NCBI GenBank assembly: GCA_017938285.1
Contig: JAGBBW010000124.1
Span: 1-40,956, forward strand
From: Lachnospiraceae bacterium
GTDB lineage: Bacteria; Bacillota; Clostridia; Lachnospirales; Lachnospiraceae
DNA length: 40,956 bases
Direction of reading: 5' to 3'
Each line of letters begins with the position of its first letter. Position 1 is the first letter of the stretch. The notes beneath the pieces are model-generated. The model was not told where the DNA came from. It ran no database searches and worked only from the letters and a program-made list of their open reading frames with translations. The position numbers and the translations under genes were made by a program. Of the stretch, positions 5,281-37,379 are shown in pieces.

Positions 5281-6312
5281 TTACTCCTTCCATTCCAGTG
5301 CAACCGCATGGGCAATTCCAGGTACGGTATCACCTTCATTGGAGCTGACGGTTGACAATAAGGCTCCGGTTGGCACAAATAAAATTTTTTTCCACTTTCC
5401 TTCTCTCATATTCTGGAGCAGATAGCCTGCCAGAGTTACTGCTGCACAGCCGCAGCCACTGCCGCCGCTGTGAACATCCTGAAACTTCTGGTCATAGATG
5501 GTCATTCCACAGTCCATATGCTGCTTTGTAATATCATATCCTTCCGCCTTTAACAAATCCAGAAGAATATCACTTCCTACATTTCCCAAATCTCCGGTTA
5601 CTATTTTATCGTAATACTCCGGTTTCCGGTCCAGGTCTTTCAAATGGGTGGAAATGGTATCTACCGCCGCCGGTGCCATACAGGCTCCCATATTCGCCTT
5701 GTCGGTAATACCATAATCCATAATTTTTCCCGGTGTTGCCGCGGTCACATAAACTCCCGGCTTCTGTTCTTTGTCCCGCTTCAGTACAACTGCACCACTG
5801 CCGGTCACTGTCCAGGTAGCACAGGGTGGACGCTGGTTACCATAACTTAATGGAAAGCGGAATTCTTTTTCTGCTGTGGCATAATGGCTGGAAGTTGCTG
5901 CCACAACATGCTCTGCCAGTTCTGCTTCCAGCAGAACTGAAGCCAGCAGTAATGACTCTCCCATGGTCGAACAGGCTCCATATACACCAAACACCGGTAT
6001 TCCTAACGACTTAACCCCAAACGAGCTGGCAGTCATCTGACGGAGCAGATCCCCACAAAACAGATTTTCCACATCCTTTATAGTCAGACCAGCTTTTTCC
6101 ACTGCTTTCTCTATTGTCTGACGCTGCAGATGACTTTCTGATTCTTCCCAGTTTTCTCCATCAAACTTTCCTGTTTCATCATAACCATCCAGATATCTTC
6201 CCAATGGTCCCTGCTGCTCCATGGCGCCGCCAAAGCAGGCACTGGAAAGAACCCGGACAGGCTGGGTAAAACGGAAGGTCTGCCTGCCCTGTTTCTTTTT
6301 TGTGTGTTCCAT
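5281..6312 (-). CDS. spoVAD: Stage V sporulation protein AD (SpoVAD)
   Basis: This 343-residue thiolase-fold protein is soluble and, in Bacillus, binds dipicolinic acid for the SpoVA channel. Diagnostic stretches are the N-terminal SACFGGAMEQQGPLG, the middle VFGVYGACSTMGESL and GNQRPPCATWTVTGSGA, and the late HSGGSGCGCAAVTLAGY. The ATG at 6312 follows an AAAGGAAA site and fits the family start. The gene is first in a two-gene unit with spoVAE. The usual neighbour spoVAC is not present here. A sigma-G type promoter lies 27 bases upstream of the start codon. Confidence 0.93.
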   Translation of the reverse strand: MEHTKKKQGRQTFRFTQPVRVLSSACFGGAMEQQGPLGRYLDGYDETGKFDGENWEESESHLQRQTIEKAVEKAGLTIKDVENLFCGDLLRQMTASSFGVKSLGIPVFGVYGACSTMGESLLLASVLLEAELAEHVVAATSSHYATAEKEFRFPLSYGNQRPPCATWTVTGSGAVVLKRDKEQKPGVYVTAATPGKIMDYGITDKANMGACMAPAAVDTISTHLKDLDRKPEYYDKIVTGDLGNVGSDILLDLLKAEGYDITKQHMDCGMTIYDQKFQDVHSGGSGCGCAAVTLAGYLLQNMREGKWKKILFVPTGALLSTVSSNEGDTVPGIAHAVALEWKE

Positions 6313-8196: not shown

Positions 8197-11100
8197 TTAC
8201 ATTTCCCTTAACAAATACTCCTTGTCTTCCTCCATCAATTCCAGCATTAGCTTCGCATAATGAGGGTCAAACTGTGTTCCTGCCCCCTTTTTGATTTCTT
8301 CATACACCTCTTTCTGTGGCAGTACATCCCGGTAGCTCCGCCTGGAAGCCATAGCGTCATACGCATCTGCCACGGCAATCAGGCGGGCCTCCTCTGGAAT
8401 CTGCTCTCCTGACAGTCCATCCGGATATCCTTTTCCGTCATACCGCTCATGGTGCCATCTCGCACCGACATCCAGCTTTGGAATCTCAGAAATATTCTGC
8501 AGAATTTCTGCACCAATCACCGGATGGGAACAAATCAGGGCGTATTCTTCGTCCGTCAGTCCTGACTGCTTTGTAATGATGGTATCCGGAATACCAATTT
8601 TTCCAATATCATGCAGCATTCCCATAAAATAAATGCGCTCCTGCTCTTTTTCCTCTTTTCCAGCCTTTTTCGCCAGTTCCAGGGAATACTGTGCCACACG
8701 GACAGAATGACCGTTGGTATACTTGTCTTTCGCATCGATGGTGCCTGCCAGTGTATGCATAATCTGCTGGGAAAGACGCTCTACCTTTTTCCGGCGTTCT
8801 TCTGCCCAGCGTGTCTGCTTTGCAACCTCTTTCTGTAAATCCTTCTGCAGGCTGGACAGCTCCAGAATACGGCTGACACGCTGTATCATGATTTCAGCAA
8901 TAAACGGCTTGGTAATAAAATCCTGGGCACCTTCCTTAAATCCCCGGACTTCTACCTCCCTGTCATTGTCTGCCGTCAGAAATACCACAGGAATATCCTT
9001 CCACTCCTCTCTTTCCCGGAGCAGGTCCATCATCTCAAAACCATCCATTCCCGGCATATGTAAATCCAGCAGAATCAGATCCGGAATTCTGCGTTCCAGT
9101 AATTCCAGTGCATCCTTTGCTGAATCCATCAGACTGACTTCAAAATACGGTGCCAGCATATGCTCTGCAATTTTTAAGTTCATGGCATCATCATCCACCA
9201 CTACAATATGCCCGGAAATCTCCTGTACTTCCTGTGGTGTATCTTCTTCCTTTTTCTCCAGCAGCACCTGGGAAATCTGATCCAGCATATTGCGGTACAG
9301 CTTCATTGCGTCAGCATGATGACTGTCAATATAATAATGATTTTCTTCTTTTGCCGCCAGTTCCAACTGCTTCGCTTCTTCTGATAAAGTAACAGCTCCG
9401 ATGGAAAGGGAAGTACTTTTCAGGGCATGCACTAGAATCCGGTAATTATTCCAGTCTTTAATTTCATAAAATGCCTGAATATCCTCCAGCTTTTCCTTCT
9501 TCAAAAAGGTCAGCAGCATTTCTTTGTAGAACTCTTCATTTTCTGCACAATAACCCATTCCTGTCCTTGTATCAAACAGCGTCAGCTGTTCCAGAATGCT
9601 TTGCGGTTTTGCTGTAATTCCAGGAACTTCCTGTACTTCCAGTTTCCCGGAACTGCCCGGATTTTCCGGCTTCTGCTCCGTTTTCTCTCCTACTAATACC
9701 GGAGAAAGATATTTTCCGATGGCAGCAAACAACATTTTTCCAGTCACTGGTTTCGACAGATAGTCATCAAAACCAGCCTCCAGATACATTTCCTTGGCTC
9801 CGGATACCGCATTGGCTGTCAGTACCACAACCGGTACTCCGGAACAAAGATTTTCTTTTTCTATTACTTTCATGGCTTCCATGCCATCCATCACCGGCAT
9901 CATGTGGTCCATCAGAATCAGGTCATATTCTTTTTTCTTAATACACTCGATGGCCTCTTCCCCATTCATGGCAAAATCCGGTTTTATTCCCACCTTTTGC
10001 AGCATTCCCCGCAGCAGGTCCAGATTCATCATGTTATCATCTACCGCCAGAATCTTCGCCTCTGGTGCCCAGAACAATTTCTCTTCCTGTTTTTCCTCCT
10101 GGTTCTGCTGTTCCTTCCAGTTACCAACCACACCTGCTCCGGCATCTTCCTGCTCCAGTGCGAAAGAAAAAACAGAACCTTCCCCATAAACACTTTCTAC
10201 CTGCAGGCGGCTTCCCATCATGTCCAAAAGTCTGGTAACCAGTGGAAGCCCCAGACCAATGCCCTGTACATGCTTTGTCTTACGTTCATCCACTCTGGTA
10301 AAACTGTCCAGAATTTTCCCCAGTTCTTCTTTCCTGATACCAATTCCGGTATCCTTGACATGGACAAGCAGGATTCCTTTCTTCTCTCCGGTGCTTTTCC
10401 AGTCAAATGCAAGTTCTACATATCCTGTATTGGTATATTTAATCGCATTGGAAATCAGATTGTTACAAACCTGTGATAAGCGCATTGCGTCACCAATCAG
10501 TTTCTGCGGCAGCGTCTCGCTCATTTCAAAACGAAACTCCAGTTTTTTCTTCTCTGCATGATAAGTGCCATAGGCAACCAAATCCTGCAGCACGGACATA
10601 ATAGAATATGGCTCTTTTTCCAGATACAGTGTACCTTCCTGAATATTTACAAAATCCAGAGTATCATTAACAATGGACAACAGCACACGTCCCGCCGTCT
10701 GAATATTCGTGGCATTGGAAATCGTATTGCTTTCCTGGGATTCCTTTAATATCATTTCATTAAAACCAAGAATGGAATTAATCGGCGTTCTGGCCTCATG
10801 GGACATATTACTCAGGAAAATCCCCTTGGCAGAATCTGCTTCCTCCATTCTCCGGTATGCTTCTTTCTGCTTCTTTCCCGAAATCCATAACCTGTACTGT
10901 GTTACCAGACTAATCACCATATCTGCCAGATACACTACCGGGAAACGAATCAAATACGTTTCTGTATATTCATACCCCAGTTCATGCAGCGGAGTCCACA
11001 TATAAACCATCGTCAGAATCCCCAGTGCAATGCTGAACATTCCTCCATAATACATCTGGAAAATACTGCACGCCACGGGAGGAACCAGCAAAAGCCAGAT

Positions 11101-11406
11101 GGCACTAAATCCATTTTCCCCACCACTTATCAGAAAATACGCCATCATCAGAAACACAACCGATGCCATACTGCCCAACACCGGCACAATTTGTTTTGTC
11201 TTACGATACAGCAGCAGGATGCCCAGCATAAATACTGCCATTCCTCCCGTAATCCCTGCCATGTGATAGGACTGTGCCAGACAATTGACCAAGGACATCA
11301 GGGAACCCACTACTGCAAAAACAATACAGAACCCGCACAGCAGCTTCCCATCCAGTTTCAGAGCTTCCTCTTTTATTTCTTTTAATATCTTCTCAAAGGT
11401 TTCCAT
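8197..11406 (-). CDS. Hybrid histidine kinase with two receivers, HPt and HD-GYP phosphodiesterase
   Basis: This 1069-residue membrane signalling protein has an unusual domain order. About six N-terminal helices (residues 20-175) carry no large outside domain. HisKA follows with His203 in MSHEART, then a HATPase with DTGIGI and GIGLGLPL. REC1 has phospho-acceptor Asp500 in LILMDHMMP. HPt has His660 in VHALKSTSLSIG. REC2 has Asp781 in LILLDLHMP, then a coiled coil. The C-terminal HD-GYP has His900, His932-Asp933 and GYP at about 993-995. The output should be c-di-GMP hydrolysis. The ATG at 11406 follows GGGAGAAGT; an upstream ATG at 11460 has no site. It is last in the operon with the BMP-like proteins. 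Confidence 0.93.
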   Translation of the reverse strand: METFEKILKEIKEEALKLDGKLLCGFCIVFAVVGSLMSLVNCLAQSYHMAGITGGMAVFMLGILLLYRKTKQIVPVLGSMASVVFLMMAYFLISGGENGFSAIWLLLVPPVACSIFQMYYGGMFSIALGILTMVYMWTPLHELGYEYTETYLIRFPVVYLADMVISLVTQYRLWISGKKQKEAYRRMEEADSAKGIFLSNMSHEARTPINSILGFNEMILKESQESNTISNATNIQTAGRVLLSIVNDTLDFVNIQEGTLYLEKEPYSIMSVLQDLVAYGTYHAEKKKLEFRFEMSETLPQKLIGDAMRLSQVCNNLISNAIKYTNTGYVELAFDWKSTGEKKGILLVHVKDTGIGIRKEELGKILDSFTRVDERKTKHVQGIGLGLPLVTRLLDMMGSRLQVESVYGEGSVFSFALEQEDAGAGVVGNWKEQQNQEEKQEEKLFWAPEAKILAVDDNMMNLDLLRGMLQKVGIKPDFAMNGEEAIECIKKKEYDLILMDHMMPVMDGMEAMKVIEKENLCSGVPVVVLTANAVSGAKEMYLEAGFDDYLSKPVTGKMLFAAIGKYLSPVLVGEKTEQKPENPGSSGKLEVQEVPGITAKPQSILEQLTLFDTRTGMGYCAENEEFYKEMLLTFLKKEKLEDIQAFYEIKDWNNYRILVHALKSTSLSIGAVTLSEEAKQLELAAKEENHYYIDSHHADAMKLYRNMLDQISQVLLEKKEEDTPQEVQEISGHIVVVDDDAMNLKIAEHMLAPYFEVSLMDSAKDALELLERRIPDLILLDLHMPGMDGFEMMDLLREREEWKDIPVVFLTADNDREVEVRGFKEGAQDFITKPFIAEIMIQRVSRILELSSLQKDLQKEVAKQTRWAEERRKKVERLSQQIMHTLAGTIDAKDKYTNGHSVRVAQYSLELAKKAGKEEKEQERIYFMGMLHDIGKIGIPDTIITKQSGLTDEEYALICSHPVIGAEILQNISEIPKLDVGARWHHERYDGKGYPDGLSGEQIPEEARLIAVADAYDAMASRRSYRDVLPQKEVYEEIKKGAGTQFDPHYAKLMLELMEEDKEYLLREM

Positions 11407-11474
11407 ACTTCTCCCTGTCTTTTTCTGAACTACCGGCTTCTTCCCCTCTCTTCCGGGCATTCGAAAATAGTAAC

Positions 11475-14063
11475 TTACGGAACGAGATATTTCTTAGCCT
11501 CCTGTGCCGTCTTTTCATATAAAGTCATCAGTTTTTCCTGATTTTCGTGGATAAATGCAATTTTTTCTTCTGCATTTTCCCCTTTTTGAATTGCCTTTCC
11601 GGCTTCTTCCATCTGACGGGCCAGTTCGGATACGGTCTCCCCACCAATACTTAGCGAAGTGGATTTTAACGCATGAACGTAAACCGTATACGTCTTCCAG
11701 TCTTCTTTTTCCAGACATTCTGCGATATTTGCTGCTTTCTCCTTCTGCATATCCGCATACATGCGAAGCATTTCCTTATACAGTTCTTCCGCATTGCAGC
11801 TGTATCCCAGCCCCAGAGTAGTATTTAGAAGGCTTTCCGGCTCATCTTCTTCCTTCCGGCTGCTTTCCACAGACTGCGCAGGTTGTTCTGACCCATCCTT
11901 CTTCTTTTCTTCACATATGACTGCCTCCGCTTTCTGCGCAGCTGCCTCCTCCGGCTCGCAAATTGCAATCTGGTGCAGTTCCAGATACTTTCGTATCATC
12001 TCTTCCAGTACCGCACCATTAATCGGTTTGCTCAGGTAATCATCAAATCCTGCCTTCAGATACTTTTCCTTCATTCCAGAAATCGCATTCGCCGTCAGGA
12101 CAATAAATGTCGTGTGTTCACATGGATTTCCCCGCAGTTCTTTTGCCAGCTTTAACGTTTCCATGCCATCCAGCCCCGGCATCATATGGTCAAGCAGGAC
12201 AATATCAAAATGTTCCTTTTCCAATAACTTTAAGCAGGCTTCCCCACTCTCACAGGTGGCAATCTGCATCTGTAACTTTTTCAACAGATTTGTAGCTACC
12301 AGCAGATTCATTTCGTTATCATCTACCACAAGAATCTTTGCATCCTTTGCCGTAAAGCTTTCCTTATACCGCTTCATTTCCCTTGCGGCCTGCTTCATCC
12401 GCTCATTGAAATCACCCATTGGCTGTGGGTCCTTCACTACCTGCGGCAACAGGACGGTGAAGGTCGTACCTTCCCCATAAACACTGGATACCAGAATATC
12501 TCCCTCCATCATGGCAGCCAGTTTTTTGGTAATGGCAAGCCCCAGTCCCGTTCCTTCCACATTACGGTTCTTTGTGCGGTCCAGACGCTCAAAATCTTTA
12601 AACAGCTTTGGCAGATCTTCTTCTTTAATACCAATCCCGGTATCCGCAACCATAATTTCCAGCAGAAGTCTGTCCCCGTCCATTGTACCATTTACGGTAA
12701 AGCTTACACTTCCTGCCCTCGTATACTTTACTGCATTATTCAGAATATTTATCATAATCTGGCGGATACGTCCTTCGTCGCCAAACAACTTATCCGGAAT
12801 GGACTCCTGTACATGCACATGAAACTCCAGATTTTTCTGTTCTGTTTTAATCTGAATCATATTAACTACATCATTTAATAAAGCACTGAACCGGTACTCT
12901 GTTTCTACCAGTTCCATCTTTCCCGACTCGATCTTGGAAAAATCCAGAATATCATTAATCAGTCCCAGCAGATTCTGGCTGGCACTCTGGATATTCAGGG
13001 CATACGTGCGGATTGTTTCATCCTCACACTCCCTGAGCACCATTTCATTCATACCCATAACCGCATTAATCGGAGTCCGGATTTCATGGGACATACTGGC
13101 AAGAAAATCACTCTTTGCCCTGTTTGCCTGTTCTGCAGCCTGCTTTGCCTCCCGCAGGGCAGCACTTTCTTTTGCTTTCGCCTCAATACCAAGCAGATAA
13201 ACCGTTCCAATGGCAAATAACAGAATCAGCAATCCAAATACCCAGAAAACAAGCTGGCTGATTACCAGGGATTCACCGGAAATTGCGGCTTCTTCCACAG
13301 TTCCAATCAGATACAGCCCATACTGCCCAATATCCGAAACAAAGACAAACTGCTCTCTGCCATTCACACTGTGATATACCGCGGCAGATTTTGCAGAATA
13401 CATTTTTTTATCAATTTCATCAAAAGCAGTCTGATATGCTTCGCTGAATAAAAGCTCCAGTTCTTCCTGCTCCCAGGTCTGGAACGGAATCACTTCCTGG
13501 TCGTTCTGTTCTGCTATCAGAAGTTTTCCTGCCTCTCCGTAACAGGATACCTGATATATTTTCCAGAATGTTTCCATGTCATATAAACGGTAAATTACAT
13601 ATTTTACATTACTTCCCTTATATACCGGAACCGTAAACAAAAAACCTTCCGTCTGGTTATAGCATACCGATGCATTACCATGGAACGCCTCTTTAATCCC
13701 GGAAAATTCAGGAAACGGCAGCTGCCGTCCATATACTGCATTTCCGTTTAATTCCAGAATTCCGGTTTCGCCTGTATTCCATACACTGTTTACTGATGCT
13801 ATTACAGAACCAATATCTCCTTCTTCTTCCATCTTCGAGGATACGTAGACCGAAATATTCTGCAGCCGTTCCAGTTCCATCCCCAGCTTGTCCTCCAGCT
13901 GATCTGAAACCACTTCTGCCTGTCTTGCCACCTGTTTTTCCATATTTTCCGTAAGAAGAGACTCCAGTCTGCCCATCAGCAGCAGCCAGATTAACACCAG
14001 AACCATCAAAAATAACAGGATTCCTGACACAATTTTCAAATTGAATTTACGTTTATTCTTCAT
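11475..14063 (-). CDS. Hybrid sensor histidine kinase (HK-REC-HPt) with extracytoplasmic sensor
   Basis: This 862-residue protein has a membrane helix at about 12-30, an outside sensor of about 235 residues, and a second helix at about 267-292. It then has HisKA with His326 in MSHEIRTP, a HATPase with DTGIGI and GTGLGLAIT, a receiver with Asp625 in IVLLDHMMP, and an HPt domain with His797 in VHALKSTSLSIG. All phosphotransfer residues are present, but there is no DNA-binding or enzymatic output. Phosphate must leave through the HPt, most simply to a receiver of the next protein. The start (14063) overlaps the end of the upstream BMP-like gene by 11 bases, which suggests translational coupling. 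Confidence 0.93.
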   Translation of the reverse strand: MKNKRKFNLKIVSGILLFLMVLVLIWLLLMGRLESLLTENMEKQVARQAEVVSDQLEDKLGMELERLQNISVYVSSKMEEEGDIGSVIASVNSVWNTGETGILELNGNAVYGRQLPFPEFSGIKEAFHGNASVCYNQTEGFLFTVPVYKGSNVKYVIYRLYDMETFWKIYQVSCYGEAGKLLIAEQNDQEVIPFQTWEQEELELLFSEAYQTAFDEIDKKMYSAKSAAVYHSVNGREQFVFVSDIGQYGLYLIGTVEEAAISGESLVISQLVFWVFGLLILLFAIGTVYLLGIEAKAKESAALREAKQAAEQANRAKSDFLASMSHEIRTPINAVMGMNEMVLRECEDETIRTYALNIQSASQNLLGLINDILDFSKIESGKMELVETEYRFSALLNDVVNMIQIKTEQKNLEFHVHVQESIPDKLFGDEGRIRQIMINILNNAVKYTRAGSVSFTVNGTMDGDRLLLEIMVADTGIGIKEEDLPKLFKDFERLDRTKNRNVEGTGLGLAITKKLAAMMEGDILVSSVYGEGTTFTVLLPQVVKDPQPMGDFNERMKQAAREMKRYKESFTAKDAKILVVDDNEMNLLVATNLLKKLQMQIATCESGEACLKLLEKEHFDIVLLDHMMPGLDGMETLKLAKELRGNPCEHTTFIVLTANAISGMKEKYLKAGFDDYLSKPINGAVLEEMIRKYLELHQIAICEPEEAAAQKAEAVICEEKKKDGSEQPAQSVESSRKEEDEPESLLNTTLGLGYSCNAEELYKEMLRMYADMQKEKAANIAECLEKEDWKTYTVYVHALKSTSLSIGGETVSELARQMEEAGKAIQKGENAEEKIAFIHENQEKLMTLYEKTAQEAKKYLVP

Positions 14064-15156
14064 AAAACCCGACACCCTCAACAAACCAGTCAAACTGCTC
14101 CAGCAGCCGTTCATCACTAATCAGTTCATTTTCTCCACACTGCAGTTTCCCGTTACTGTCATAGATTACACCAGAAAAAACTTCTTTTCCGTCCAGCAGT
14201 TCCTTCTCTGCCTTTTTTACTGCCTTCTGTACATTTTGGGGCACTGCATCCGAAAATTCAGCCAGACCAACCGCTCCGGTTTCCAGACCGATCCAGAAAT
14301 TCTCTGTGGAATTTGCCTTGCCTTTTAAAAATTCCTGCAAAAGTTCCCGATAGACCTGCTCCCAGTCACATTTGACACAGGTCAGGTACCGGTCTGAAAA
14401 CTGCTGGGCAGACTCATGGTAGCCAATGGAATAAATCCCCGCCATTTCCGCTGCTTCCACTACATAGGTCTGGTTCTGGTGATACGTAATGACATCCACT
14501 CCCACATTGTCAATCAGTTTATTGGCAGCTTCTTTTTCCCTTGCTTCATCATCCCAGGTATTCGTAAAAATTACGGTTACCACCGCTTCAGGATTTGCTT
14601 TCCGTACCCCCAGCGTAAAGGCACTGATTCCCCGGTTTACTTCATTATTATTCATGGCAGCCACATAACCAATCCGGTTACTCTCCGTCATACTGCCTGC
14701 CACAATTCCTGCCAGATATCTGGCCTGATACATCTTTACAAAATAAGAAGTTAGATTTTCTTCATGATATTCCGATGAATTTCCATAAAACACCACTTCC
14801 GGGTACTCCCTGACCAGTTCATGTACCTCTTCCGAATATCCATAACTGCTCAGTACTACCATCTCACAACCTGCTTCTACCAGTTCCCGCACAGCTGTTC
14901 CACACTGCCCACTGCCTTCCAATACATATTCTTCTATCAGTAAATCAGCTTCTGCGGTTTCACAGGCTGACTTCATTCCCCGGTAGTGCATTCCATTCCA
15001 TCCGTCTTCCGTAGCTCCTCCGGATAAAATAAAACCTACCTTATGCTTTTCTCCTTCCCTGTCGGACAGAATTCCACTCAGCAAAAGAAAAATGACAACC
15101 AGAACCAGTGTAGCGGCAACCAGAAGCAGCCACCTGTATTTTTTACTCTTCTCCAT
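14053..15156 (-). CDS. BMP-family (basic membrane protein) ligand-binding protein, copy 2
   Basis: This 367-residue protein has one uncleaved-looking N-terminal helix (about 9-30) and a periplasmic-binding fold of the BMP/PnrA type. The family includes nucleoside- and purine-binding lipoproteins. Family-like blocks are KVGFILSGGATEDGWN, YLAGIVAGSMTESNRIGYV and AFTLGVRKANPEAVV. No lipobox cysteine follows the helix, so it is probably anchored by the helix. No ABC permease or ATPase is nearby. It overlaps both neighbours (14 bases with copy 1, 11 with the kinase gene), so it is likely a sensing subunit rather than a transporter part. It ends in an FDWFVEGV motif shared with copy 1. Confidence 0.85.
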   Translation of the reverse strand: MEKSKKYRWLLLVAATLVLVVIFLLLSGILSDREGEKHKVGFILSGGATEDGWNGMHYRGMKSACETAEADLLIEEYVLEGSGQCGTAVRELVEAGCEMVVLSSYGYSEEVHELVREYPEVVFYGNSSEYHEENLTSYFVKMYQARYLAGIVAGSMTESNRIGYVAAMNNNEVNRGISAFTLGVRKANPEAVVTVIFTNTWDDEAREKEAANKLIDNVGVDVITYHQNQTYVVEAAEMAGIYSIGYHESAQQFSDRYLTCVKCDWEQVYRELLQEFLKGKANSTENFWIGLETGAVGLAEFSDAVPQNVQKAVKKAEKELLDGKEVFSGVIYDSNGKLQCGENELISDERLLEQFDWFVEGVGFYEE

Positions 15157-16231
15157 GAATCTTCACTCCCTCGACATACCAGTCAAACTCATTCAGCATT
15201 GCTTCATCCGACATACTCTCCCCTGCCGGAATCCTAAGCGTTCCATTCCTGTCGTAAATCGGTCCATAAAATACATCAAACGTACCACTGCTGATTTCCT
15301 GCATTTTCTCTTCCACAATTACTGCAATGCCTTCTTTGACATGCTCTGTCAGGGGAGCCAGGGAAATCATCCCGGATTCAGCTCCTTCCCAATAGTTCCG
15401 GCCAACAAACTTTCCCTGCTGGACTTCTTTAATACGTGGTGTATAAAAATTCTCCCAGTTCCAGACAGGTGCTGTTAAAAAGAAATCATCACAGCGTCTG
15501 CTGTTGTCCATGTTATAACCAATGGACCATATGCCCTCTTCCTCCGCAATCTCCAGAGGACGCAGGGAATCCGTATGCATGGCAAGCACATCTATGTCAT
15601 AATTCGTAATCAGTGTCCGGGTTGCCTCTCCAGCCTCCTTATCATCGGTCCAGGAATTACACCATTCCACATAAACCACTGCCTCCGGATTCACGGAATG
15701 CACTCCCAAAGTGAATGCATTAATCCCTCTGTTCACCTCGGAAATCGGAAATGCTGCCACATAACCTATCTGGTTAGTTTCTGTCTGCAGCCCTGCCACA
15801 ATGCCGCTCAAGTAACGCATTTGGTACATTCTTCCAAAATAAGTAGAGAGATTCTCTTTCTCTTCCACACCGGATGCATGAAAAAAATGTACCTCCGGAT
15901 GCTCTTCTGCTGCCTCCTGTATATAGGTTCCATAATTAAAAGAATTACAGATAATAATGTTGCAACCTTCTGCAATCATCGCCTCCATCCGTGCAACACA
16001 TTCCTCAGATTCCGGAACTGCTTCCTCATACACCAGTTCCAGACCAAGTTCCTGTACTGTCCGGCAGATTCCCTCATAGTGGGACTGACTCCAGCTCTGG
16101 TCATCCACCTGTCCATTCAAAACTATTCCAACCTTTAGTGATTCCTTTTTTTCCTCCCGCCCGGAGATATAGAAAATCCCGACAATAATTACTGCTAAAA
16201 TAATTGCGGCGGTAATTACTATTTTCTTCAT
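15143..16231 (-). CDS. BMP-family (basic membrane protein) ligand-binding protein, copy 1
   Basis: This 362-residue paralogue of the next gene has the same plan: an N-terminal anchor helix (about 4-23), then a BMP/PnrA-like binding domain. Shared blocks are KVGIVLNGQVDDQSW, YLSGIVAGLQTETNQIGYV and AFTLGVHSVNPEAVV. Both end in an FDW(Y/F)VEGV motif. There is no lipobox cysteine. The ATG at 16231 follows AAAGGAGGATACC, the strongest ribosome site of the operon, so this is the first gene of the tight cluster. The nfo gene ends 92 bases upstream with no clear promoter between, so read-through from nfo is possible. The ligand is unknown; a nucleoside is a family-based guess. Confidence 0.85.
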   Translation of the reverse strand: MKKIVITAAIILAVIIVGIFYISGREEKKESLKVGIVLNGQVDDQSWSQSHYEGICRTVQELGLELVYEEAVPESEECVARMEAMIAEGCNIIICNSFNYGTYIQEAAEEHPEVHFFHASGVEEKENLSTYFGRMYQMRYLSGIVAGLQTETNQIGYVAAFPISEVNRGINAFTLGVHSVNPEAVVYVEWCNSWTDDKEAGEATRTLITNYDIDVLAMHTDSLRPLEIAEEEGIWSIGYNMDNSRRCDDFFLTAPVWNWENFYTPRIKEVQQGKFVGRNYWEGAESGMISLAPLTEHVKEGIAVIVEEKMQEISSGTFDVFYGPIYDRNGTLRIPAGESMSDEAMLNEFDWYVEGVKIHGEE

Positions 16232-18016: not shown

Positions 18017-18700
18017 TTATTCCTCCAAATAACGTTTTAACTCTTCCACCAGTTTGTAAACCGTCGTTCCCGGATCATATTCCGATGGTTTATCTTTATT
18101 CTCATCAAACTTATTCATCCTGCGTTTTGCGTGCTTTATTGCTGTATTTACGCCATCATACCTATCCACTATAGTATAAATATTCTCATAATTCTTACGA
18201 TATTTCCCATCACCTAGCGAATATTCATTAAAAATTTTATCTAATTTCTCCTGCCATTTTTCTCTATGCAATGCGGAATCACTGTAATTAAAATGAAGAT
18301 ACAGCCAATATTCAAAGGACTGATTACTCCAGGCAATATTGTATCCTTTCTTCTCTCCCAATTGTATTGCCTCGTCAAAGTCCTCAAAATCATCTTTATC
18401 AAATACTACCCATACATTTTGATACAGTATTTTTGCTCCACGAACAATCTGCTCTGTGGTTTCAATCAGCCTGCTGGTAGCACATCCTTCTCCATGAATA
18501 TCTATTATCGGACACTCGACTACATTCACTACACCGCCTATTTTTTCAATAATTAACTTTTTTAATCCCTTAAAGTAATATGGCTCTGTGCACTCTCCTT
18601 CCGTCACAATCAAAAAGGAATTAGCTTTAGGATTCTTTGTTTCATACTTCCTTTGTTTTCTGGCTTCTCTCCGTTTTTTAAATAAATCATCTGTTCCCAC
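18017..18700 (-). CDS. rloB: RloB-family protein (AbiL-like defence pair, effector-type partner)
   Basis: This 227-residue protein shows the RloB/TOPRIM-like pattern. An early acidic loop FLIVTEGECTEPYYF carries Glu34. A strand VWVVFDKDDF carries Asp101, Asp103 and Asp104. The family motif NQSFEYWLYLHF lies at about 127-137. RloB proteins are thought to be metal-dependent nucleases that act with an SMC/ABC-like ATPase in abortive infection (AbiL, RloAB). The GTG start at 18700 lies immediately after the rloA stop, with AAGGTGA as ribosome site, so translation is coupled. The basic N terminus (KKRREARKQRK) is common in the family. The defence role is inferred from family and neighbour. Confidence 0.85.
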   Translation of the reverse strand: MGTDDLFKKRREARKQRKYETKNPKANSFLIVTEGECTEPYYFKGLKKLIIEKIGGVVNVVECPIIDIHGEGCATSRLIETTEQIVRGAKILYQNVWVVFDKDDFEDFDEAIQLGEKKGYNIAWSNQSFEYWLYLHFNYSDSALHREKWQEKLDKIFNEYSLGDGKYRKNYENIYTIVDRYDGVNTAIKHAKRRMNKFDENKDKPSEYDPGTTVYKLVEELKRYLEE

Positions 18701-19894
18701 CTATTCACCTTCCCTCATTGCAAATTCCTTAATAAGTGGAATTCCGCCATATACCCCTGCTAAATAATCTTTTTCAAAAGAAGCATCAGATCTGACTTTA
18801 AAATCTGATAAAGCGACTAATTCAGAATATCCAAATTCATCTTTCTGTACAAACCAGATCTGGTCTCTTCTAAAGAATTTCTTATCCATCAAGGTTGTAT
18901 CATGTGTTGTATAAATCAATTGCGCTTTAGACCCTTTTTCATAGAACAAATCAATAATAAATTTCAACAGCAGTGGATGCAGTTTAATATTTAATTCATC
19001 TACAAACATGGAACAACCCTGTGAAATAACAATTTTTGCATATATATACAGCATAATGCTTTTTATCGTACCTTCCGATTCACAATACAAGCCCAGTGGA
19101 TACTTTTTACCATTCTTCCCTACATGAATTGTAGAAAAGACCACCTGCTTATCACTGTCATCATACCGTATATCCTTAATTCCCGTATCAATCGCTGTTA
19201 AAAATTCCAGTAAATTTTCCTTCTCTTCATCAATCACTTTTGGCAATAATGCTTCCAGTATATCGCGGTCTTCGCAAAAATCTATTGGAATCACGAATGT
19301 GTCCATTATGCCGGAATACACTTCTTTAAAAATTTCTGTTTTCATCTTAAGCTTATTAAAAAAAGATAAGACTAATGTTTCTGCAGGAATCTGCTCCTTA
19401 TATGCATCACATTCTTTTCTAACAGATGGACCAAATGCCACGAAATAAGTTGTTCTTTCAAAAATTACCGTTAATCGGTTTGTCTCTATATTCTTTCGAT
19501 ATAACCATTCTGATACAATACATTCTGCATTATATTCAAATCCATAGCGGTATTCATACTGCCCAATCATTACAACAATCTGAAACTCCGAATTTTCTTT
19601 ATTATCTTCAAAAGAAAATGGTACAAAGTACTGCGCAATTGCAGTTTTATCACCATCCTCCACATTATTTAAGGATTTCATAATGATTTTTTGGAAATAG
19701 TCCATCGCCAGATATAAATTTGACTTTCCACTTGCATTCGCACCATAAACAGCTGCCACTTTTAAAAACTTTTCTTTAGTTCCAATATCAATCAAATTGC
19801 ACTCGTGTTCCTTATATGCATTAATTGCGGTCATATCTAATATGGTTTCGTCTTTAAATGATAGTACATTTTTTATTGTAAATTGTACAAGCAT
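18701..19894 (-). CDS. rloA: RloA-type ABC/AAA ATPase (AbiL-like defence pair)
   Basis: This 397-residue ATPase has an N-terminal strand pattern typical of the OLD/SMC-like AAA_15/AAA_21 group (VQFTIKNVLSFKDE). Walker A is GANASGKSN at 51-59, a signature-like SEGT lies at about 273-276, and Walker B is MFVDELNIKLHP with Asp299-Glu300. A switch histidine, His331, lies in IYTTHDTTLMD. Such ATPases sense phage triggers and control a partner nuclease (compare PARIS AriA, AbiLi, RloA). The ATG at 19894 follows AGGGAGGCGAAATA. It is the first gene of a two-gene operon with rloB, with a strong promoter at 19922-19950. Confidence 0.87.
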   Translation of the reverse strand: MLVQFTIKNVLSFKDETILDMTAINAYKEHECNLIDIGTKEKFLKVAAVYGANASGKSNLYLAMDYFQKIIMKSLNNVEDGDKTAIAQYFVPFSFEDNKENSEFQIVVMIGQYEYRYGFEYNAECIVSEWLYRKNIETNRLTVIFERTTYFVAFGPSVRKECDAYKEQIPAETLVLSFFNKLKMKTEIFKEVYSGIMDTFVIPIDFCEDRDILEALLPKVIDEEKENLLEFLTAIDTGIKDIRYDDSDKQVVFSTIHVGKNGKKYPLGLYCESEGTIKSIMLYIYAKIVISQGCSMFVDELNIKLHPLLLKFIIDLFYEKGSKAQLIYTTHDTTLMDKKFFRRDQIWFVQKDEFGYSELVALSDFKVRSDASFEKDYLAGVYGGIPLIKEFAMREGE

Positions 19895-35394: not shown

Positions 35395-37290
35395 TCATCT
35401 TCCGGAGCTGCCAGCCGCTTCTCTCCTGCGCCTCTGTTTTTCAGCATACATCAGACCATCTGACTTTTCTATCAGTCCTTCAAAATTCAATGTTTCCTGC
35501 TCCCCTGTCACATATATGCCCACACTTGCCTCTACTTTATATTCTTTTCCCGATTTTGCATTAAATTCCTTAAAATATTGTATAAAACGTTCTTTTAACA
35601 CCTCTGGTTCCAATGCTCCACAACATACGCCCAGCATCTCATCACCACCAAACCGGGTAAATAATGCTCCCTCCGGACATACCTTTACCAATGCCTGTGC
35701 CACAGCATAAATAGCGAAATCACCTTCTTTATGTCCAAAGGTATCATTAATATATTTTAACCGGTCCAGATCCGCCAGTACAATGGTTAATGGACCATTC
35801 TCTTTTCTGTTTTCGAGAAGCTTCTGATATTCAGTTTCAAACCCCCGGCGGTTATACAGACCGGTCAGGGTATCCGTCTGATACATGGACTCAATCCGAC
35901 TCATCAGAAACTGCCTGTAACGCAGATTCCGGAATCCGCCAATTCCATTGTTTAATGCATTCACCGTCTGGGGAATTTTCATATAATTTCCCTCATTCAG
36001 TTCACTAAAGAAAAAACAGACATATCCAAGCGGCACATCCGCATGATACAATGCTGTAAAAATCAATGCCCTGCCATGTGCCAGCATATAATCCAGATGC
36101 GGCGTAATCTCCTTTAAGCCAAACTGGTACGGAACAAAATTTTCTTTACTGTCACTGTCAAATAGTACAAGCATTTCCCTGTCTTTTTCCCTATGCTCCC
36201 GCCCACATTCTGCCGGGTTTACCTTTTCATCCACACAGTCCAGTTCCACAATGCAGCACATATCATAAAGAATTTCATGCCGCATTTGTTCCGCCACCTG
36301 CGCCGTCGTTTCACAACGCAGCATCCGGGCTGTCACCTGGGATAATACTAATTCTTCTTCCTGAAAACGATACAGGTTATCAAATGCTGCATTCAAAAAA
36401 CCCGAAATATTCTGTGTCTTTTCTCCCTTGCAGCCACAGGATTCTGCCACACACAGCCGTGTTGGCACAAGAAATGTCTCTGTTTTTCCAATCATCCCAT
36501 CCATCTGCCGCAAAATTTCTGCTGTTTTTGCAGCCAGATCTTCCGCAGCACAAATTACGGATGTAATTCTTGGCGATGTAATTGCTATTTCTGTAATACC
36601 ATCAAAACCGGTAACTGCCACATCCTCCGGCACCCGTATACCATGTCTGCTTAAAACATCACATACCGCAATTGCCATACGGTCATTGGCACAAAGCACT
36701 GCTTCCGGAAGCTTTCCGGAAAGAATCAGTTTTTCCATTTCCGCTTCTGCTATAACAGAATTAAAATCCCCATAACTTACCATATCCTCCCGAAACACTA
36801 TACCATTTTCTTCCAACACTTCCCGAAAAGAATTCAGGCGGTATTCCGAAAACACATTTCCCTTTATTCCTGCCATTAAATGCAGTTTTTTTAAATGATG
36901 GTCCTGAATCATATGCCGGACCACCCCTGCAAACTCATTTTTATGGTCGTACTGCAAATTGATGCAGCCTTCTTTCCGTTCTCCTATTATAATTACAGGA
37001 ATCCCATGGGATTCTGCACGCCGGACCAGTTCATCGGATACGGTTCTGTTCCGCATTACCTCTTCGAACACAATCACAACATCAAGTATTTCATAATCCA
37101 TAATGTCATAGACTGCCATCTGAGGATTCCTGGCCATATCTTCTTCCCCCACTACAGAGCAGGTATTATACACAAACAGACCATATCCAATTTTCTGCAC
37201 TGCCCGGTTTAACGCTGTAATATATTCATTTGTAGCTCCATCCTGTATTCTGGCAATACAGACAGCCGCAATTTTTTTACCATATATCAT
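35395..37290 (-). CDS. LacI-type sensor domain fused to GGDEF diguanylate cyclase
   Basis: This 631-residue protein opens with a LacI/GalR periplasmic-binding-like domain (about 1-300; AVCIARIQDGATNEY, VLCANDRMAIAVCDVLSRHGIRVPEDVAVTGFDG). It lacks the usual N-terminal HTH. A GAF-like or helical linker follows. The GGDEF domain starts at TDTLTGLYNRRGFE, with the active site RFGGDEM at about 546-552. A methionine takes the place of Phe, which is tolerated in active cyclases. No RxxD inhibitory site precedes it. It should make c-di-GMP in response to a cytoplasmic sugar-like ligand. The ATG at 37290 is nine bases after GGGAGGG. Confidence 0.9.
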   Translation of the reverse strand: MIYGKKIAAVCIARIQDGATNEYITALNRAVQKIGYGLFVYNTCSVVGEEDMARNPQMAVYDIMDYEILDVVIVFEEVMRNRTVSDELVRRAESHGIPVIIIGERKEGCINLQYDHKNEFAGVVRHMIQDHHLKKLHLMAGIKGNVFSEYRLNSFREVLEENGIVFREDMVSYGDFNSVIAEAEMEKLILSGKLPEAVLCANDRMAIAVCDVLSRHGIRVPEDVAVTGFDGITEIAITSPRITSVICAAEDLAAKTAEILRQMDGMIGKTETFLVPTRLCVAESCGCKGEKTQNISGFLNAAFDNLYRFQEEELVLSQVTARMLRCETTAQVAEQMRHEILYDMCCIVELDCVDEKVNPAECGREHREKDREMLVLFDSDSKENFVPYQFGLKEITPHLDYMLAHGRALIFTALYHADVPLGYVCFFFSELNEGNYMKIPQTVNALNNGIGGFRNLRYRQFLMSRIESMYQTDTLTGLYNRRGFETEYQKLLENRKENGPLTIVLADLDRLKYINDTFGHKEGDFAIYAVAQALVKVCPEGALFTRFGGDEMLGVCCGALEPEVLKERFIQYFKEFNAKSGKEYKVEASVGIYVTGEQETLNFEGLIEKSDGLMYAEKQRRRREAAGSSGR

Positions 37291-37379
37291 TCCTGTTTCC
37301 CTCCCCATACTTTCCACACATTCTCCATACTGTCACAGCAGCAGTATGTCATACCCTTTCCGGGCCCTGTTTTATCCTA

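Follow-up and report, generated by a model that had tools for sequence, protein, structure and literature searches.

Two BMP-family binding proteins beside a hybrid histidine kinase: a candidate purine-base receptor linked to c-di-GMP enzymes in Lachnospiraceae

Why should two binding proteins of a transport protein family be encoded directly beside a hybrid histidine kinase (HK)? The question is raised by the stretch of DNA analysed here (the window), 40,956 nucleotides (nt) long, which is one entire contig (JAGBBW010000124.1 of assembly GCA_017938285.1) of a 154-contig, approximately 87% complete genome of a Lachnospiraceae bacterium. Four adjoining genes of the window encode two proteins of the BMP family, a hybrid HK and a second hybrid kinase that ends in an HD-GYP domain. 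From sequence comparison it appears probable that these genes specify a receptor kinase for extracellular purine bases which employs two solute-binding proteins (SBPs) and which here feeds a phosphodiesterase of cyclic di-GMP (c-di-GMP). The four genes are listed below; TM denotes transmembrane, REC a receiver domain, HPt a histidine phosphotransfer domain and aa amino acids.

15143-16231, minus strand: BMP1, 362 aa; Bmp domain (PF02608); TM anchor at residues 4-22, no lipobox; predicted purine-base receptor
14053-15156, minus strand: BMP2, 367 aa; second Bmp-family protein; TM anchor at residues 11-29
11475-14063, minus strand: sensor hybrid HK, 862 aa from its ATG; TM-ectodomain (about 235 aa)-TM-HisKA-HATPase-REC-HPt
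8197-11460, minus strand: output relay protein (the HD-GYP protein), 1087 aa; at least four TM segments, then HisKA-HATPase-REC-HPt-REC-HD-GYP, of the c-di-GMP phosphodiesterase type

The locus and the conservation of its gene order

An earlier note on this DNA had described four tightly linked minus-strand genes with intact relay residues and with neither a transporter nor a DNA-binding output, and this description is borne out. BMP1 and BMP2 overlap by 14 nt, BMP2 and the HK by 11 nt (counted from the ATG of the HK, whose longest frame opens at a GTG at 14117), and the HK is separated from the HD-GYP gene by a gap of 14 nt. These overlaps and the short gap suggest translational coupling. Among the ten open reading frames scanned with Pfam between positions 5281 and 19894 there are no ABC transporter genes and no DNA-binding regulators.

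Both BMP proteins match the Bmp profile at scores of 173.0 (BMP1) and 164.1 bits (BMP2) against a curated cut-off of 24.1, and the other Pfam assignments at the locus also lie above the curated cut-offs: HisKA, HATPase_c, Response_reg and Hpt in the HK; HisKA, HATPase_c, two stretches of Response_reg, Hpt and HD_5 in the HD-GYP protein. The relay motifs are complete in the HK (SHEIRTP from residue 325, DHMMP from 625, HALKS from 797) and in the HD-GYP protein (SHEARTP from 220, DHMMP from 518, HALKS from 678, DLHMP from 799). The latter also carries motifs of the catalytic type (HDIGK at 950, HHERYDGKGYP at 1003; HD_5 113 bits), and the solved relatives of its HD-GYP domain include 5z7c (cGAMP-specific), 4mcw and 4r8z. 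Judged by motifs and profile, it fits an HD-GYP phosphodiesterase. Hydropathy shows a single N-terminal TM segment in each BMP protein and two in the HK, at residues 11-29 and 267-285, which enclose the ectodomain of about 235 residues. The kinase part of the HD-GYP protein lacks a large ectodomain.

The linkage of BMP proteins and kinase was followed in 150 genomes of the family, which were searched with BMP1 and with an alignment of the kinase ectodomain (at most 14 candidates scored per genome). Close relatives of BMP1 (46-64% identity, E 7.3e-111 or better) occur in nine other genomes. Eight of the nine have the order BMP1-BMP2-kinase; in the ninth (G135) one contig carries BMP1-kinase and another BMP2-kinase. 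Full-length matches to the ectodomain (E<1e-100) are confined to the same 10 of the 150 genomes, window included, and each of the 11 full-length copies adjoins a BMP gene, the next best match having an E-value of 1e-25. The receptor BMP and the kinase are thus present or absent together in the family genomes.

A wider alignment scan with BMP1, of 84,980 species genomes, gave 344 pattern matches and 295 relatives, of which the best 80 loci were kept (L056-L135). In 77 of them the sensor kinase is found downstream of BMP1, no more than two genes away; the remaining three (L083, L090, L109) stop at a contig edge. BMP2 follows BMP1 in 69 of the 80, is cut off by the contig end in L109, and is absent from ten loci in which a single BMP gene precedes the kinase (L065, L092, L101, L115, L118, L120, L121, L123, L130, L135). 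The counts of 81 BMP1, 70 BMP2 and 63 loci given here and below take in the window. All 70 pairs of BMP1 and BMP2 overlap (median 14 nt), as do all 68 pairs of BMP2 and kinase (median 11 nt); these overlaps were measured from the first start codon and are upper bounds. Found again in many other species, the gene order is not due to chance. The earlier note had held beforehand that linkage unique to this strain would speak against its receptor idea; the linkage found in 77 of the 80 best related loci and in the same 10 of 150 family genomes is the conserved adjacency of binding protein and kinase expected of SBP-activated kinases.

The related loci come from metagenome-assembled genomes (MAGs), mostly of Lachnospiraceae from ruminants and other herbivores, with a few labelled Oscillospiraceae, Ruminococcus or Fibrobacter. 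The BMP1-BMP2-kinase loci L119 and L128, in MAGs labelled Fibrobacter, reflect either mis-binning or horizontal transfer. At one kinase locus (L062:220-1641) a gene for a protein with the signalling domain of methyl-accepting chemotaxis proteins (MCPs) lies 22 nt upstream of BMP1.

Anchor, ancestry and binding pocket of the BMP proteins

The lipobox pattern was found in 2 of 81 BMP1 and in none of 70 BMP2 sequences, and the window's own two proteins lack it; of 15 BMPs taken for comparison from loci with a transporter or a chemoreceptor or from unassigned ones, 12 have the pattern. The N-terminus carries a strongly hydrophobic segment in 78 of 81 BMP1 and in all 70 BMP2 sequences. In the kinase-linked proteins, a TM anchor apparently stands in for the lipobox of the transporter proteins. 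In a tree of 64 BMP sequences, made by a quick method and having some long branches, a branch (SH-aLRT 94) sets all 37 kinase-linked BMPs apart from the transporter BMPs. BMP1 plus the single BMPs form one sub-clade (99) and BMP2 another (100). The tree is consistent with a single recruitment, after which the gene was duplicated in tandem and BMP2 was lost at a later stage.

The nearest BMPs outside the family are SBPs of transporters: 14 of the 16 loci fetched have ABC-permease-permease genes. Eight of the transporter-relative loci encode a protein of 190-204 aa with a common conserved start, and the one checked (L203) is a xanthine phosphoribosyltransferase, above the cut-off. A purine riboswitch was found at the gathering threshold in 5 of the 11 loci scanned (L190, L193, L196, L197, L201). 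The earlier note would also have given up the receptor idea if homologues of these BMPs always sat with ABC genes; the present BMPs do not, although most of their nearest relatives in other families do. Such relatives would nevertheless be expected if BMP1 and BMP2 served an unlinked ABC permease in ordinary purine uptake, with the kinase merely reporting on or controlling transport. We regard this as highly unlikely. No ABC genes adjoin the BMP genes in the window by Pfam (the related loci were judged by their recurring gene order, ABC queries not having been run there), the lipobox is replaced by a TM anchor, and the overlapping genes co-occur strictly with the kinase ectodomain. Moreover, the only other Bmp protein found in this genome, on contig C92, is of a different type: it adjoins ABC_tran and BPD_transp_2 genes and has none of the pocket signature of the kinase-linked BMPs. 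The genes flanking the locus, for an Nfo-like AP endonuclease, NfeD, an AAA_14/DUF4143 ATPase and SpoVAD, are not transport-related.

The closest solved relatives of both BMP proteins are 3s99 and AtzT (6pi5), followed by 2hqb. With the BMP1 profile the E-values are 7.9e-72 for 3s99, 6.4e-69 for 6pi5 and 1.4e-38 for 2hqb, a Bacillus protein annotated as 'Transcriptional activator of comK gene'. The nucleoside-binding PnrA (2fqw) is a remote relative. TmpC/PnrA, the proteins of nucleoside ABC transport, share PF02608 with the present BMPs but reach only 3.7e-11 with the same profile, and the lipobox and ABC genes are absent here. In AtzT, according to the available text of PMC6834077, guanine is sandwiched by Tyr45 and Trp194, is bonded by Ser97, Glu165, Asn218, Asn220 and the backbone of Phe98, and binds with a KD of about 110 nM; adenine was modelled in 3s99 (PMC6834077).

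The residues of the window's proteins at the positions of Tyr45, Ser97, Glu165, Trp194, Asn218 and Asn220 are W47, S97, E165, W194, H219 and D221 in BMP1, and W53, S104, E172, W201, H226 and N228 in BMP2. The Ser, Glu, Trp and aromatic stack of the guanine site are therefore kept, although AtzT and 3s99 are periplasmic proteins of the transporter type without a kinase partner. The pocket is nearly invariant among the relatives. In BMP1, Glu165, Trp194 and His219 are each found in 81 of 81 sequences, Ser97 in 79 and Asp221 in 76 (Asn in the other five), and W47 is replaced only by Y or F across 22 kinase-linked rows. In BMP2, Trp53, Ser104 and Trp201 are found in 70 of 70 and Glu172, His226 and Asn228 in 69 of 70. 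A histidine takes the place of Asn218 of AtzT in both proteins, as it does in 3s99 and in the purine-riboswitch-linked transporter BMPs; the nearest transporter BMPs have the same pocket signature.

By their pocket residues BMP1 and BMP2 thus group with the purine-base-binding BMPs AtzT and 3s99, and the most likely ligand is a purine base of the adenine, guanine, hypoxanthine or xanthine class. The earlier note had allowed for nucleosides or purines; the purine base is favoured by the closeness of 3s99 and AtzT, and a nucleoside of the PnrA type was rejected on pocket and sequence grounds. The equivalent of Asn220 is Asn in BMP2 and Asp in most BMP1 sequences, a difference which suggests that the two proteins may have two ligand preferences.

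The same difference could also be accommodated if the BMPs are kinase receptors whose pocket drifted after co-option, so that the ligand is a nucleoside, another planar heterocycle or a vitamin-like compound. AtzT itself is described as having been recruited to 2-hydroxyatrazine with its site unchanged (PMC6834077, available text), and the sole NCBIfam match of both BMPs is ABC_BMP_B6, far below the cut-off. However, the pocket positions are as fixed in the kinase-linked BMPs as in the transporter BMPs linked to purine riboswitches, and a ligand other than a purine base is considered unlikely. The role of ligand receptors for the kinase, as proposed in the earlier note, is supported by the TM anchor, the conserved pocket and the separate clade of these BMPs; their docking to the kinase is what we infer.

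BMP genes were encountered in other contexts as well. Six BMP lipoprotein genes adjoin MCP genes (L049:6049-8978, L052:5848-8758, L053:194-3122, L054:704-3622, L055:4608-7532, L202:556-4182). The MCPs are of the sCache_3_3-HAMP-MCPsignal type in the five Lachnospiraceae loci and 4HB-HAMP-MCP in L202, without an adjoining permease, and the pairs are candidate BMP-dependent purine chemoreceptors. The ten Lachnospiraceae loci L046-L055 comprise five with an MCP, four with ABC genes and one with three tandem BMPs at a contig end. At L200:6138-8992 a BMP gene is followed, with a 4-nt overlap, by a gene for a 4HB_MCP-HAMP-SpoIIE phosphatase, possibly a further type of BMP-coupled receptor. Finally, proteins of about 630-680 aa (L136:4728-6650, minus strand, and similar ones in L137-L143) join a Bmp domain to an N-terminal region which on visual inspection resembles ParB (no Pfam match). 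They lack a signal peptide, the pocket signature is lost in the one checked (L138), and they occur in many Lachnospiraceae; these fusions are possibly cytoplasmic BMP sensors.

The proposed relay and its output

In the pathway that we favour, BMP1 and BMP2 would be type-I periplasmic-binding folds on the outer face of the membrane, held there by an uncleaved TM segment. Each would close around a small molecule, for which a purine base is the likeliest candidate, and the liganded protein would bind the ectodomain of the hybrid kinase encoded next to it, altering the balance between the kinase and phosphatase activities of the latter. Phosphate would pass from His326 of the HK to Asp625 of its receiver and His797 of its HPt domain, and from there to Asp799 in the second receiver of the HD-GYP protein, whose own kinase, having no large ectodomain, probably relays or integrates. 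Phosphorylation would switch the HD-GYP domain and so change the local level of c-di-GMP. In related loci the same receptor would feed REC-GGDEF cyclases or both enzymes, the receptor being constant and the sign of the output variable. The genome has 21 matches to GGDEF and four to PilZ, so that c-di-GMP signalling is presumably active in it. Elsewhere in the window (35395-37317, minus strand) a Peripla_BP_3 domain, the LacI-type sugar-binding fold, is fused to GGDEF, a second binding-protein fold tied to c-di-GMP.

The output neighbours of the related loci have, by Pfam, the architectures REC-HD-GYP, dCache-HD-GYP-REC, REC-REC-HD-GYP, HD-GYP-REC, REC-HD-GYP-GGDEF, Reg_prop-HD-GYP-REC, HK-REC-HPt-REC-HD-GYP and REC-GGDEF. 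In the 63 loci of which both flanks could be judged, HD-GYP was found in 25, GGDEF in seven and both in eight. On a tree of 75 ectodomains (62 rows labelled) the output label needs at least 17 changes, and the c-di-GMP enzymes therefore appear to have been gained or exchanged repeatedly. Because the same receptor is paired with REC-GGDEF, with REC-HD-GYP, with both or with neither, the direction of the change in c-di-GMP seems not to be conserved across related loci. The conclusion of the earlier note that the pathway ends in c-di-GMP hydrolysis may hold for this locus but does not extend to the system.

The best evidence that the sensor kinase and the HD-GYP protein share a relay is a natural fusion in one MAG (L114). 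A single open frame of 1842 aa, in a locus without N, runs from a sensor HK-REC straight into TM-HK-REC-HPt-REC-HD-GYP. The fusion has lost the HPt of the sensor kinase, and a single HPt remains. In L075 and L097, near relatives of L114, the sensor kinase and the HD-GYP protein are separate genes.

Several findings weigh against the proposed pathway, some concerning the output and others the receptor. No c-di-GMP enzyme is nearby in 23 of the 63 informative loci. As a control, 40 hybrid kinases without BMP were drawn, in order of rank, from the 10 genomes that have BMP1, and a c-di-GMP enzyme was counted if it lay within three operon genes; BMP loci, hybrid kinases lying close to them on a shared contig, the HD-GYP gene of the window and rows with internal stops were excluded. 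HD-GYP or GGDEF neighbours were found at 15 of these 40 kinases too, as against 39 of the 72 BMP loci whose kinase is complete (p=0.115, kinship ignored); when contig-edge cases are left aside the figures are 39 of 62 and 15 of 40 (p=0.015, kinship again ignored). The architecture HK-REC-HPt-REC-HD-GYP is also found away from BMPs, in G012 and G086. Linkage to HD-GYP was accordingly dropped as a hallmark of the system, as was the idea that the HK-REC-HPt-REC-HD-GYP protein is specific to BMP loci. Because HD-GYP or GGDEF neighbours also flank the control kinases, the HD-GYP step is a common habit of the hybrid kinases of this family, and what is specific here is the BMP receptor.

The HD-GYP gene might then be a mere neighbour that receives no phosphate from the BMP-linked kinase, the real target of the relay lying elsewhere. 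HD-GYP neighbours alone occur at 11 of the 40 control kinases, the HD-GYP protein carries a kinase of its own, and at several loci the REC genes are all of the single-domain kind or are missing. This explanation is held to be rather unlikely, given the 14-nt gap in the window, the fusion in L114 that keeps a single HPt, and the recurrence of the association in many architectures, the output type changing 17 times on the tree of the sensors. The absence of a DNA-binding output was likewise rejected as a rule. In the 81 loci, 14 operon genes have a REC domain without an HD-GYP, GGDEF or HK label; of the eight examined with Pfam one (L105) has Trans_reg_C, and this gene adjoins another HK gene. 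A neighbour in L108 looks by eye like a LacI-type regulator, the unlabelled neighbours being mostly unscanned by Pfam.

As to the receptor, the profile of the ectodomain gave only kinase-core matches above noise in the Protein Data Bank, with no solved relative. A match to the dCache_1 domain at E<0.1 was obtained for 25 of 75 members (best 2.4e-7), the window's own sequence remaining unmatched, and hhalign of the ectodomain against nine dCache domains was not significant (1.6% probability). More distant homologues of the ectodomain occur without BMPs, in G427 (L187; 2.9e-46; the gene is at a contig end, with no BMP in the preceding 9 kb) and in L208-L211. Four such BMP-less loci include two ectodomain-GGDEF proteins and one kinase adjoining REC-HD-GYP. 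Because these distant relatives join GGDEF or REC-HD-GYP, the ectodomain lineage seems to be tied to c-di-GMP more widely, the BMP-dependent branch being derived. The distant relatives at L208:5919-8141 and L209:6012-8294 are fused straight to GGDEF, with no BMP nearby. Lastly, according to the available text of PMC11113362, the SBPs tested failed to activate two Pseudomonas aeruginosa kinases that are encoded beside SBP genes.

The dCache_1 matches would be understandable if the ectodomain bound a ligand of its own and the BMPs only modulated it or scavenged nearby. Precedent exists in dCache domains to which purines bind directly and which control c-di-GMP, with a motif that includes a tryptophan, W140 of McpH (PMC11245519, available text). 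However, this tryptophan is not found in the ectodomain, where Trp reaches at most 8% in any extracellular column of 75 ectodomains, and in the 150 family genomes the BMPs and this ectodomain subfamily are never apart at full-length strength. An ectodomain that senses by itself is thus distinctly improbable, and sensing through the BMP proteins is preferred.

Two further results concern the window at large. Promoter and terminator scans were uninformative (10 promoter-like sites compared with 17.0 in shuffles, 14 terminator-like sites compared with 7.3), and no Rfam family was matched in the window. At 18017-19894 (minus strand) an RloB-like protein and an AAA ATPase are encoded; their best PADLOC matches are AbiLii and AbiLi, and they are a candidate anti-phage pair.

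Relation to known systems

In LuxP-LuxQ, a type-I binding protein encoded beside a hybrid kinase with an extracellular domain is thought to signal through that kinase. The present locus resembles LuxP-LuxQ and other SBP-activated kinases in this arrangement, but differs in that the binding protein belongs to the Bmp family, is present in two TM-anchored copies, occurs in a Gram-positive organism and, in the window, is linked to c-di-GMP enzymes rather than to a DNA-binding regulator. A second parallel is found in Bacillus, where Med, called a lipoprotein, was reportedly described by Banse and colleagues in 2011 as required for KinD to phosphorylate Spo0A. The protein of structure 2hqb presumably belongs to the Med family, and the ectodomain of KinD has the dCache_1 fold. 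In both cases a Bmp-family protein would act with a membrane HK; but Med is named as a lipoprotein and acts on the DNA-binding Spo0A, while in the present system two BMPs anchored by TM segments accompany a hybrid kinase that includes an HPt domain, together with enzymes of c-di-GMP turnover.

Activation by SBPs is well established for kinases, chemoreceptors and c-di-GMP enzymes; in the available text of PMC11113362, 13 SBP families are mentioned, and the genes of SBP and kinase adjoin in 10 of the 11 pairs that have been characterised. For dCache_1PU, a rise in c-di-GMP upon direct sensing of purines is described (PMC11245519, available text). The logic from extracellular purine to c-di-GMP would be the same here, but there the protein's own dCache domain binds the purine, while here separate binding proteins would do so and the motif tryptophan is missing from the ectodomain. 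Among the titles and opening lines of abstracts listed from the open-licence PMC literature, which is a limited library, no description of an operon of BMP, hybrid kinase and c-di-GMP enzyme was found. What appears to be new is the putative BMP-kinase receptor, whose gene linkage is strongly conserved.

The steps by which a transport protein family would have become a receptor can be read from the locus: the lipobox was lost, a TM anchor gained, the gene duplicated, and the permease is gone. BMPs are paired with chemoreceptors too, which suggests one receptor module for several outputs. As a tentative and rather doubtful extension, BMP1 and BMP2 with different base preferences might jointly gate one kinase, so that the cell would read the balance of purine bases and set the synthesis or breakdown of c-di-GMP accordingly; the BMP protein might then be a general receptor module, widespread in Lachnospiraceae, that has joined ABC transporters, chemoreceptors, SpoIIE-type phosphatases and hybrid kinases in independent recruitments.

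The literature searched here says little about what controls c-di-GMP in the clostridia of gut and rumen. Purine bases would provide a named and testable class of ligands for a receptor conserved in 10 of the 150 family genomes sampled. If the proposed pathway is correct, purines from host cells, diet or neighbouring organisms would steer the choice between motile and sessile life in common gut bacteria.

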